From positions 1-64,000 of the forward strand of contig NZ_NFJF01000008.1 of assembly GCF_002159735.1 (NCBI RefSeq): a stretch of DNA of 64,000 nucleotides. Reading direction: 5' to 3'. The DNA comes from Olsenella sp. An270 (lineage in GTDB: Bacteria > Actinomycetota > Coriobacteriia > Coriobacteriales > Atopobiaceae). Both the position numbers and the translations under genes were made by a program. The notes beneath the pieces were generated by a model. The model had not been told where the DNA came from. It worked only from the letters and a program-made list of their open reading frames with translations, and made no database searches. Shown here piece by piece: positions 2,984 through 30,552 of the stretch (positions are counted from its first letter, which is position 1; every line of letters starts with the position of its first letter).

Positions 2984-3137
2984 TTCTCGTAGCCCCCAAA
3001 GGGCCGGCGGCCCCGCCCCAATGTTTCAAGACGGAGTCTCTTCTCGCCGCCTTCCGCGGACGGCCCTACACTCAGCACGTCAGACAGCCGCGGGCCAATA
3101 GCCCGCGCCCGCTCAACTACTGAGGAGGCCAACGTTG

Positions 3138-3212
3138 ATGAACGTTCACAGCGCACCCGCGTGCGCCGCCCTCCTCGCATCCCGACGCCAGAACCGACGA
3201 ATCACGCCCTAG
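3138..3212 (+). CDS. putative arginine leader peptide (24 aa) of argG
   Basis: This small reading frame starts with ATG at 3138. GAGGAGG (3122-3128), a near-ideal ribosome site, lies 9 nt upstream. It ends with TAG at 3210-3212. The second half encodes SRRQNRRITP: four arginines in six codons, three of them CGA, a codon that is rare in this GC-rich genome. It lies 111 bp before argG and just upstream of an intrinsic terminator. Together these are the features of an amino-acid attenuation leader. A hairpin with CGCGGGC/GCCCGCG arms (3089-3107) precedes the ribosome site. Function is inferred; expression cannot be seen from sequence. Confidence 0.65.
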   Translation: MNVHSAPACAALLASRRQNRRITP

Positions 3213-3286
3213 ATGTCGCGCGTCGCTCCAGCATGCAGGTTTCTATCGCCAGCCCAGCTCAAGCGCCCCGCGACGTCGGGGCTTTT
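3183..3286 (+). promoter_or_regulatory. candidate arginine transcription attenuator of argG
   Basis: Mutually exclusive pairings are visible. Segment 1 (CGACGC, 3183-3188, on the first Arg codons) pairs with GCGTCG (3220-3225). Segment 2 (ATGTCGCG, 3213-3220) pairs with segment 3 (CGCGACGT, 3269-3276), 8 bp with one G-U. Segment 3 overlaps the 5' arm and loop of the terminator (3265-3286). A ribosome stalled on CGA/CGC codons would cover segment 1, free segment 2, and so disrupt the terminator, allowing argG transcription when charged tRNA-Arg is scarce. Confidence 0.6.
3265..3286 (+). terminator. intrinsic terminator in the argG leader
   Basis: GCCCCG (3265-3270) pairs with CGGGGC (3277-3282), followed by TTTT (3283-3286) and CTG. 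It lies 38 bp before the argG start and no gene ends just upstream, which fits an attenuator rather than a gene-end terminator. Confidence 0.75.
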
Positions 3287-3323
3287 CTGTGAGACGTAGA
3301 CCAACCCAAGGAAGGGAATCATC

Positions 3324-4553
3324 ATGGCAGAGAAGGAAAAGGTCGTCCTCGCGTACTCCGGCGGACTGGACACGTCCGTCATCGTCAAGTGGCTGCAGGT
3401 CGAGAAGAACCTCGACGTCATCGCCATCTGCGGCAACGTGGGACAGGACGAGAAGGACCTCTCCTGGATCAAGCAGAAGGCCCTCGACATGGGCGCCATC
3501 GCCTCCGAGGCCATCGACATGCGCGCCGAGTACGCCGACAAGATCCTCTCCAAGGCGATCTGGGCCAATGGCAAGTACGAGGGCGTCTACCCGCTGCTCT
3601 CCGCGCTGTCCCGCCCGCTGATCTCCAAGCACCTCGTGGACATCGCTCACCAGTACGGCGCCAAGTACATCGCCCACGGCTGCACCGGCAAGGGCAACGA
3701 CCAGGTCCGCTTTGAGACCTGCATCCGCGCGCTCGACCCCGAGCTTGAGATCATCGCGCCCGTGCGCGTGTGGGATCTCACCACGCGCGACTCCGAGATG
3801 GAGTGGGCCGAGGCCAACGGCGTGCCCGTGCCCACCACCAAGAAGAAGCCCTACTCCATCGACGACAACCTCTGGGGCCGCGCGATCGAGTGCGGCGTGC
3901 TCGAGGACACCTGGAACAAGCCGCCCGCGGACATCTGGACGATGACCAACAACCTCGAGGACTGCCCCGCCGAGCCGGAGGAGGTCGTGATCTCCTTCGA
4001 GGAGGGCATCCCCACCGCCATCAACGGCGAGAAGATGGACCTGCTCAGCCTCATCATCAAGGCCAACGAGATCGCCGGCCGCAACGGCTTTGGCCGCATC
4101 GACATGATCGAGGACCGCGTCGTGGGCATCAAGAGCCGCGAGTGCTACGAGTGCCCCGCCGCGCTGCTGCTCATCCAGGCGCACCAGACCCTCGAGCAGC
4201 TCTGCCTCGACGCCGAGACGCTCAAGCAGAAGGCCAAGATGGACGTCGAGTGGGCCTCGACCGTGTACCGCGGCCTGTGGTTCAGCCAGAACCGCATGGC
4301 GATCGACGCCTACAACGCCTACACGCAGAAGTTCGTCACCGGCGACGTCCGCATCATCCTGTGCAAGGGCGGCCTGTTTGTCGACGGCGTGCGCTCCGCG
4401 TACAGCCTCTATGACTACAACCTGGCCACCTACGACGAGGGCGACTCGTTCGACCACACCGCCGCCCGCGGCTTCATCGAGCTCCACGGCCTGCAGTCCA
4501 AGACCTGGTCCAAGGTCCAGGGTCCCGGCTCCGGCCTCCAGCCCGTGCACTAG
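3324..4553 (+). CDS. argG: argininosuccinate synthase
   Basis: This cytosolic enzyme condenses citrulline and aspartate using ATP, the penultimate step of arginine synthesis. The 409 residues match the family length. The PP-loop ATP site AYSGGLDTS is at residues 10-18, and GKGNDQVRF (122-130) binds citrulline and aspartate. ATG 3324 is preceded by AAGGAAGGG. The next step, argH, lies downstream on the same strand after an inverted-repeat-rich gap of 312 bp. Transcription is probably controlled by the leader described at 3138-3286. Confidence 0.97.
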   Translation: MAEKEKVVLAYSGGLDTSVIVKWLQVEKNLDVIAICGNVGQDEKDLSWIKQKALDMGAIASEAIDMRAEYADKILSKAIWANGKYEGVYPLLSALSRPLISKHLVDIAHQYGAKYIAHGCTGKGNDQVRFETCIRALDPELEIIAPVRVWDLTTRDSEMEWAEANGVPVPTTKKKPYSIDDNLWGRAIECGVLEDTWNKPPADIWTMTNNLEDCPAEPEEVVISFEEGIPTAINGEKMDLLSLIIKANEIAGRNGFGRIDMIEDRVVGIKSRECYECPAALLLIQAHQTLEQLCLDAETLKQKAKMDVEWASTVYRGLWFSQNRMAIDAYNAYTQKFVTGDVRIILCKGGLFVDGVRSAYSLYDYNLATYDEGDSFDHTAARGFIELHGLQSKTWSKVQGPGSGLQPVH

Positions 4554-4636: not shown

Positions 4637-4791
4637 CCTGCCTTGAAAACCGACTTCTGAACACTTTTGTACCGTGAAGGGCCCAAGACCACCTTTTGTG
4701 GATAGCGTTTGCGCAGGTGGCCTGAGGCACGAAAGCTCGACGGCGGTATGCGCGAGCGGAAAACTATTCATAAGTCGGTTTTCAAGGCAGG
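4637..4791. repeat. 155-bp element with perfect 20-bp terminal inverted repeats
   Basis: CCTGCCTTGAAAACCGACTT (4637-4656) is repeated exactly in inverted orientation at 4772-4791. The 115 bp between is visibly more AT-rich than neighbouring genes and holds no gene. It resembles a miniature inverted-repeat element, but I see no target-site duplication next to the arms. Transcribed as RNA it would form a long-stem structure in the argH 5' leader. Confidence 0.65.
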
Positions 4792-4865: not shown

Positions 4866-6257
4866 ATGGCGCTGTGGGGCGGCAGGTTCGAGAAGGGCGT
4901 GGATCAGTTCACGCAGGAGTTTGGCGCGAGCCTCGAGGTCGACAAGAACATGGCGGCCCACGACATCGCCGGCAGCCGCGCGCACGCGCGCATGCTCGCC
5001 GAGCAGGGCATCATCTCCGCCGAGGACCAGGCCGCGATCGACGCGGGCCTCGCCGACATCGCCTCCCAGATCGAGGAGGGCACCTTCGCCTGGGACGTCA
5101 ACGACGAGGACGTCCACATGGCGGTCGAGGGCGCCCTCACCCGCGCGATCGGCGCGGCGGGCGGCCGCCTGCACACCGGCCGTTCCCGCAACGACCAGGT
5201 CGCCACCGACATCCGCCTGCTCGCCAAGGACCTCTGCGAGGAGCTCCTCGCCGGCAACGTCGAGCTGCGCCGCGTCCTGCTCGACGCGGCCGACAAGAAC
5301 CTCGACGTCGTGATGCCCGGCTACACGCACCTCCAGCACGCGCAGCCCGTGCTGCTCTCCCACCACCTGCTCGCGTACTTCTGGATGTTCACGCGCGACT
5401 TCACGCGCCTCGCTGCCGCCCGCGACGCCGCCGACGCCAACCCGCTCGGCGCGGCCGCGCTGGCAGGTACCACCTACCCGCTGAACCGCGCGCGCACCAC
5501 GGAGCTCCTGGGCTTCTCGCGCGCGATCCCCAACTCGCTCGACGCCGTCTCCGACCGCGACTACCTGCTCGACCTCGAGTACGCCTGCGCCGTGAGCATG
5601 ATGCACCTCTCGCGCCTCTGCGAGGAGATCGTGCTGTGGAGCTCCACCGAGTTTGGCTTCATCACGCTCTCGGACGAGTACTCCACCGGCTCCTCGATCA
5701 TGCCGCAGAAGAAGAACCCCGACTTCGCCGAGCTCACGCGCGGCAAGTGCGGCCGCGTCTACGGCGACCTGATGGCGCTGCTCACCACCATGAAGTCGCT
5801 GCCGCTCGCCTACAACAAGGACCTCCAGGAGTGCAAGGAGGGCCCGCTCGACGCCGCGCGCACGCTCTCCGACTGCATGGAGATCGCCGCGGGCATGGTG
5901 GAGACCTGGACCGTCAACGCCGACGTCATGCTCGCGCGGGCGGGCACGGGCTTCTCGGCCGCTACGGACGTGGCCGACTACCTGGCCAAGAAGGGCATGC
6001 CCTTCCGCGAGGCGCACCGCGTGGTGGGCGAGCTCGTGCTCTATTGCGAGAAGCACGGCAAGGGCCTCGAGGACCTCACGGCCGAGGAGTTTGCCGCGGC
6101 GAGCCCGCTCTTCGAGGCCGACATCGCGCAGGACCTGGACCCTGCCGGCATCGCCAACGCCCGTGTGACCTACGGCGGCACCGGCCACGATGCGGTTGTC
6201 GTGCAGCTGGGCGAGGCGCGCGAGACGCTAGCCGTGGACGCCGGCTCGCTGGCTTAG
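4866..6257 (+). CDS. argH: argininosuccinate lyase
   Basis: This enzyme cleaves argininosuccinate to arginine and fumarate, completing arginine synthesis. It has 463 residues, the normal size. The fumarase/aspartase superfamily signature GSSIMPQKKNPD starts at residue 275 and carries the catalytic serine. The TGRSRNDQV substrate loop lies near residue 105. ATG 4866 follows GAAGGAG at the usual distance. Its leader contains the 155-bp inverted-repeat element and a 6-bp dyad, so it may be transcribed separately from argG. The 3' end runs into a 31-bp repeat array. Confidence 0.97.
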   Translation: MALWGGRFEKGVDQFTQEFGASLEVDKNMAAHDIAGSRAHARMLAEQGIISAEDQAAIDAGLADIASQIEEGTFAWDVNDEDVHMAVEGALTRAIGAAGGRLHTGRSRNDQVATDIRLLAKDLCEELLAGNVELRRVLLDAADKNLDVVMPGYTHLQHAQPVLLSHHLLAYFWMFTRDFTRLAAARDAADANPLGAAALAGTTYPLNRARTTELLGFSRAIPNSLDAVSDRDYLLDLEYACAVSMMHLSRLCEEIVLWSSTEFGFITLSDEYSTGSSIMPQKKNPDFAELTRGKCGRVYGDLMALLTTMKSLPLAYNKDLQECKEGPLDAARTLSDCMEIAAGMVETWTVNADVMLARAGTGFSAATDVADYLAKKGMPFREAHRVVGELVLYCEKHGKGLEDLTAEEFAAASPLFEADIAQDLDPAGIANARVTYGGTGHDAVVVQLGEARETLAVDAGSLA

Positions 6258-30475: not shown

Positions 30476-30552
30476 TGGTGCGGCGTATAGGATTCGAACC
30501 TATGACGCCCTGATTCGTAGTCAGGTCCTCTATCCAGCTGAGGTAACGCCGC
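30476..30552 (-). tRNA. tRNA-Arg (anticodon ACG)
   Basis: On the minus strand the acceptor GCGGCGT pairs with ACGCCGC. The anticodon stem CCTGA/TCAGG holds the loop CTACGAA, anticodon ACG (inosine-modified in most bacteria, so it reads CGU, CGC and CGA). The T-loop is TTCGAAT and CCA is encoded. Confidence 0.95.

Follow-up and report, generated by a model that had tools for sequence, protein, structure and literature searches.

The window analysed here, a stretch of 64,000 nucleotides from the genome of Olsenella sp. An270, carries the arginine biosynthesis genes argG and argH and, upstream of argG, a short leader ORF followed by a terminator-like hairpin (Table 1). A 155-base element lies between the two genes at 4637-4791. 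It has 32-base inverted ends that are 91 % complementary, and pieces of it, mostly the arms, occur at about ten further sites of the genome, some of them paired, as would be seen for a small mobile repeat. The genes argC, argJ, argB and argD are located elsewhere in the genome; family models identified argJ and argC, and argB and argD were assigned from their position and translation. No Arg leader was visible by eye in the 290 nt upstream of argC of the argCJBD operon. Since these genes lack a visible Arg leader, the strict motif described below, whose one match in the genome is the argG leader, marks argG alone. A relaxed pattern (CGNCGNCARNNNCGNCGN) gave 172 matches in the same genome and was discarded as uninformative.

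Upstream of the leader, a consensus scan found no sigma-70 promoter, and the -10 element in Table 1 is a putative one chosen by eye. The hairpin that follows it carries a compensatory change in L020 (GCAGGC/GCCTGC). The start codon of the leader ORF is located in the loop of another small palindromic hairpin, AACGTT-GATG-AACGTT at 3131-3146, which is also kept in the genus.

Table 1. Features of the argG leader region and related genes in the window
Feature	Position	Strand	Remarks
Putative -10 element, TACACT	3067..3072	+	found by eye; position kept in genus alignment; TATAGT in most relatives
Hairpin, GCGGGC-CAATA-GCCCGC	3090..3106	+	between putative promoter and leader Shine-Dalgarno (SD) sequence; kept in genus
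SD of leader ORF, GAGGAGG	3122..3128	+	kept within genus
Leader peptide ORF	3138..3212	+	24 codons and stop; ATG at 3138, TAG at 3210-3212
Control codons, CGA CGC CAG AAC CGA CGA (Arg-Arg-Gln-Asn-Arg-Arg)	3183..3200	+	leader codons 16-21
Arm 1 of covarying first helix, AGAACC	3190..3195	+	arm and partner covary across genera
Region 2, ATGTCGCG	3213..3220	+	5' half of antiterminator
GCGTCG, complement of Arg codons CGACGC (3183-3188)	3220..3225	+	first helix of the preliminary description
Partner of arm 1, GGTTTCT	3238..3244	+	GGTTCT in relatives
Intrinsic terminator, GCCCCG-CGACGT-CGGGGC and TTTT	3265..3286	+	stem-loop 3265-3282; kept in relatives
Region 3, CGCGACGT	3269..3276	+	3' half of antiterminator; overlaps terminator left arm and loop
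argG, argininosuccinate synthase	3324..4553	+	NCBIfam PRK00509/TIGR00032 equivalog
argH, argininosuccinate lyase	4866..6257	+	TIGR00838 equivalog; 312 nt downstream of argG
tRNA-Arg, anticodon ACG	30476..30552	-	sole tRNA gene found able to read CGA/CGC/CGU

A preliminary description of this DNA, made from the sequence alone, had proposed that a 24-codon ORF with a GAGGAGG ribosome-binding site precedes argG and that four of six consecutive codons near its end encode arginine, three of them as CGA. Both the ORF, which is translated as MNVHSAPACAALLASRRQNRRITP, and the Arg cluster are present as proposed. Among the 817 Arg codons of 30 genes in the window, only 17 (2.1 %) are CGA, while CGC accounts for 80 %. 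Because CGA is this rare, the probability of finding at least three CGA among four Arg codons by chance is about 4e-5 at the codon usage of the window. At the level of sequence, the comparative support beyond chance is overwhelming and far stronger than this codon-usage probability.

For the comparison, the argG protein was searched in the contigs of named genomes and in the genus of the window, which yielded 83 distinct upstream regions, 48 of them with an ORF containing the motif [RIN]R[QH]xRR. The first codon of the motif is CGA in 43 of the 48 leaders and the fifth in all of them, the third is CAG (Gln) in 47, the second is CGC, CGT or CGA, the sixth is CGA or CGT, and the fourth is filled by many different codons. 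None of the Arg codons of the motif in these leaders is CGG, AGA or AGG. These codon statistics are restricted to the 48 leaders found via the argG protein, as codon counts from a pattern search are biased by the pattern. A DNA pattern of the motif was also scanned over 299 genomes of the order. With C or T at position 6 and A or T at position 18 it had 54 matches, of which 43 are located upstream of argG by alignment or coordinates, two are located elsewhere and nine were not fetched. The matches span many genera of the Atopobiaceae, the family of the window, and one genus of a second family, whose argG is only 63-67 % identical. Across both families, the form CGA-CGC-CAG-NNN-CGA-CGA recurs in 56 distinct argG leaders. 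Leader-bearing argG sequences fall into two deep clades of the argG tree, and their distribution requires six gains or losses of the leader, compared to 27 for shuffled labels. The peptides N-terminal to the motif, such as MNVHSAHACAALLAA, MICTARSHGMVSL, MNNEITRQDAL, MKRTFAPMHTAHANEASL and MTIEWATRSL, cannot be aligned between genera, and the Arg cluster is therefore the part kept by selection.

Several variants of the leader were observed. In the genus members L014, L020 and L079, the leaders upstream of argG are eroded to two or three Arg codons, with peptide ends such as TSQMRRI and NRQMRRI before the stop codon. Their terminator is smaller and region 2 still matches its partner (GATGTC/GACATC in L079). 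Collinsella L055 and L057 have a longer argG leader with CGACGCCAG and CGACGACGA, which ends in TRRQRAISRRR with three CGA before the stop codon, and no terminator was found in these two leaders. They are possibly a distant variant of the same device and were excluded from the counts. Two argG lineages of the same family, L143-L188 and L001-L109, are about 65-70 % identical and both lie behind the same leader, suggesting an ancient duplication, a replacement or a transfer together with the leader.

The terminator that had been predicted at 3265-3282 with its TTTT was recovered as the sole terminator-like site between 2940 and 3340 by a terminator scan, with a fold of -12.2 kcal/mol (z -2.5). 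Also present as predicted is the antiterminator, in which ATGTCGCG is complementary to CGCGACGT with one G-U pair, and the computed fold of the RNA 3213-3290 pairs region 2 with region 3. Since region 3 lies inside the left arm and loop of the terminator, the two structures are mutually exclusive. Compensatory changes in several lineages support this pairing. Within the genus, ATGTCGCG/CGCGACGT is replaced by ACGTTGCG/CGCAACGT in L012 and L013, and L155 has CAATATCG/CGATATTG where L058 has CGATGTCG/CGGCATCG. In other genera, region 2 spans +39 to +46 relative to the first Arg codon, and the bases immediately 5' of the CCCGG of the terminator form its partner, with the pairs GTGCTGCT/AGCAGCAC, GTGTTGTC/GACAACAC, GTGTTGTT/AACAACAC and GTGTTTC/GAAGCAC.

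The first helix had to be revised. The pairing of the Arg codons CGACGC with GCGTCG in the preliminary description exists as written but is exact only in the window (L081) and its nearest relatives L001 and L002, and it is broken or weakened by G-U pairs elsewhere. A first helix formed from the Arg codons does covary, but its commoner pairing is that of AGAACC with GGTTTCT, which contains one bulged T in the window. Across genera, CAG-NNN-CGA pairs with bases that lie 42-72 nt past the start of the motif, shortly behind region 2, and the free fourth codon tracks this segment: AAC occurs with GGTTCT, GAC with GGTCC and GCT with AGCCT. The score of the first helix with its own partners is 13.3 compared to 11.5 +/- 0.48 for permuted partners, and the antiterminator has 81.5 % of the positions paired in 25 distinct pairs compared to 74.5 % for permuted partners, with none of 5000 permutations as high in either case; these controls leave the relatedness of the sequences in, and two-sided changes nonetheless recur in separate lineages. 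Slid versions of the antiterminator were paired at 27-52 %. In a formal count on 18 leaders, 83.7 % of the cells were paired compared to 33-45 % in slid versions, and the covariation score was reached by two of 500 shuffles. Neither codon meaning nor the first helix alone accounts for the full nucleotide conservation of codons 1-2 and 5-7. The check suggested beforehand, a comparison of argG leaders across relatives, thus supported the proposal, with the ORF and its Arg codons kept and the helices covarying.

Taken together, the leader is very likely a ribosome-mediated transcription attenuator that controls argG by sensing charged tRNA-Arg of the ACG/ICG isoacceptor. The testable features of such a device, namely a leader ORF with a ribosome-binding site, Arg codons, a terminator, an antiterminator and a protector helix, were all found. 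Sequence comparison supports the ORF, its Arg codons, the helices and their covariation, and the predicted antiterminator excludes the terminator, while a working terminator, transcription-translation coupling and arginine as the signal are what we infer. In the trp and his attenuators, a stalled ribosome leads to antitermination and normal reading to termination. The same signs would apply here because of the footprint geometry and the fold of region 2 with region 3 in the RNA from 3213. If the footprint is taken to extend about 11-14 nt beyond the first base of the A-site codon, a ribosome on any one of the four Arg codons reaches no further than 3194-3212 and leaves region 2 free, whereas at the stop codon it extends to 3221-3224 and hides region 2. 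With ample arginine, the ribosome would reach the stop codon and cover region 2, so that the terminator forms and transcription ends before argG. If charged tRNA-Arg is scarce, the ribosome would stall on a CGA or CGC codon and block the first helix, region 2 would be free to pair with region 3, and argG would be transcribed. If no ribosome is present, the first helix would enclose or pair region 2, and termination would be favoured. The minimum-energy fold of the full RNA 3183-3290 favours an antiterminator-like pairing, and termination therefore needs ribosome cover or cotranscriptional formation of the first helix.

Three other explanations of the leader were considered. The nascent peptide could itself be an arrest sequence, in which free arginine or a precursor, instead of slow decoding at scarce charged tRNA, makes the ribosome stall at Arg-Arg-Gln-X-Arg-Arg. 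The near invariance of RRQxRR, including the Gln in 47 of the 48 leaders, would agree with this. However, conservation between genera does not extend to the residues before the motif, the fourth codon is free as an amino acid yet tied to RNA pairing, and the AG of the Gln codon is part of the first helix. A peptide sensor also has no need for the conserved choice of CGA, and stalling in this leader would favour read-through, so that a biosynthetic gene would be regulated in the wrong direction if the ribosome stalled at high arginine. An arrest peptide is therefore very unlikely.

Also very unlikely is an RNA element that acts independently of translation, such as a riboswitch or a protein-binding RNA, in which the motif reads as Arg codons by chance. 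Although the motif hardly varies even at its wobble positions, which is more than coding would require, an Rfam scan of the window at the gathering threshold matched tRNA families only. Moreover, a start codon and an SD match of at least five bases with no stop codon in between were found in the Arg frame in 52 of the 56 distinct leaders, but only once in the next frame and never in the third, and start and motif are separated by a spacer of variable length, about 30 to 66 nt. This frame bias together with the variable spacer favours a translated ORF over a pure RNA motif. Another reading, with a remote chance of being correct, is that the leader acts on the translation of argG or via Rho and that the hairpin is not an intrinsic terminator. 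The window has a short T-run (TTTTCTGT), and a simple scan found no convincing terminator in about 14 of 66 leaders, e.g. L014, L026, L146, L148 and the L027 group. In most leaders, however, a strong hairpin runs directly into a T-run, such as TTTTTT in L024 and L176, well upstream of the ribosome-binding site of argG.

The choice of CGA can be related to the tRNA genes of the genome. Fifty tRNA genes were found, with the Arg anticodons ACG, CCG, TCT and CCT and none with TCG. Due to the missing TCG tRNA, the codons CGA, CGC and CGU all depend on the tRNA with the anticodon ACG, which is presumably edited to inosine. The preliminary description had already assigned CGA to this tRNA, and its gene was confirmed. 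It serves about 87 % of the Arg codons here, with CGA as its weakest codon. CGA was probably chosen as the rarest CGN codon, read only via inosine-adenine wobble by the major Arg-decoding tRNA. As it is both rare and dependent on this wobble on the main Arg tRNA, it should be the most starvation-sensitive codon. According to the selective-charging theory, a codon is well suited for control if its tRNA is the first to lose its charge, which applies to a tRNA in low supply relative to its codon use (PMC1183508). As far as sequence can tell, the choice of CGA fits this theory. It is possible, but unlikely, that the CGA-CGN-CAG-N-CGA-CGN cassette serves specifically to sense the inosine-34 tRNA-Arg through slow decoding. 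If so, the leader would report arginine supply, charging and the A-to-I editing of a single tRNA, and argG would respond both to arginine supply and to the charging and editing state of this tRNA.

In most bacteria, arginine biosynthesis genes are usually controlled by repression through ArgR and its ARG boxes. The contrast with ArgR drawn in the preliminary description holds for the genome of the window, which is 98.6 % complete and contains neither ArgR domain, while control searches were positive. It does not hold for most attenuator-bearing relatives, which encode ArgR. Within the genus, ArgR is present in 14 of the 23 members searched and absent from the genome of the window and eight others, and it is present in most attenuator-bearing genomes outside the genus. 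For this reason, the attenuator as a general replacement of a lost ArgR was rejected. In a scan for ARG boxes upstream of argG, scores of at least 14 were reached by 6 of the 35 regions without the leader and by 7 of the 56 with it, a weak signal that does not discriminate between them. In L176-L179 and L186-L188, ARG-box-like palindromes (e.g. AATGCATAAATATGCAAG) are located 370-474 nt upstream of argG and upstream of the leader, suggesting that repression and attenuation may act in series where ArgR is present.

The attenuator is conserved in a large part of one family of gut bacteria and in part of a second; many of these genomes also encode ArgR, and others lack it. These genomes provide a natural set in which the repressor was lost and the RNA switch was kept. 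They would also allow a test of whether control codons are selected to match the tRNA that is most sensitive to starvation, as the choice of CGA, which makes up about 2 % of the Arg codons, is nearly absolute. Judging from the arrangement of the leader, a gut bacterium would very probably switch on argG only when its ribosomes are short of arginine.

The leader shares its layout with the classical attenuators, namely the enterobacterial trp, his, leu, thr and phe attenuators and those of trp, trpS and leuS in Corynebacterium and Streptomyces (PMC1262725): a short ORF, repeated codons for the product amino acid, exclusive helices, a terminator and a biosynthetic gene. It differs from them in being specific for arginine and in its fixed hexacodon with CGA codons that overlap the first helix. 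In a survey of Actinobacteria from 2005, which does not mention Coriobacteria, arginine operons were reported to have no conserved RNA structures upstream (PMC1262725), and the main text of a survey of premature terminators from 2010 mentions neither arginine nor argG (PMC2965389). A literature search of open-access papers found no earlier report of an arginine attenuator at argG. The leader most likely represents classical attenuation with an amino-acid specificity for which these papers give no earlier case in Actinobacteria. Repression by ArgR also controls arginine biosynthesis, but through a DNA-binding repressor. The arginine T-boxes of Firmicutes (mentioned in PMC1262725) likewise control arginine genes at the RNA level by tRNA charging, but they bind the uncharged tRNA directly and without translation, and the Rfam scan found no T-box family in the window. 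In Staphylococcus aureus, the leader peptide rbfL likewise senses arginine limitation with rare Arg codons, but these are AGA and AGG, and it blocks the translation of a biofilm regulator and thus has the opposite sign (PMC13009471). For carA of Pseudomonas, a gene of the arginine and pyrimidine pathways, a leader peptide with attenuation was proposed in work cited in PMC4997734; as cited there, the attenuation is linked to pyrimidines, while arginine acts separately on transcription. Among ribosome-mediated attenuators, the specificity for arginine and the fixed CGA hexacodon of the argG leader are new as far as checked.
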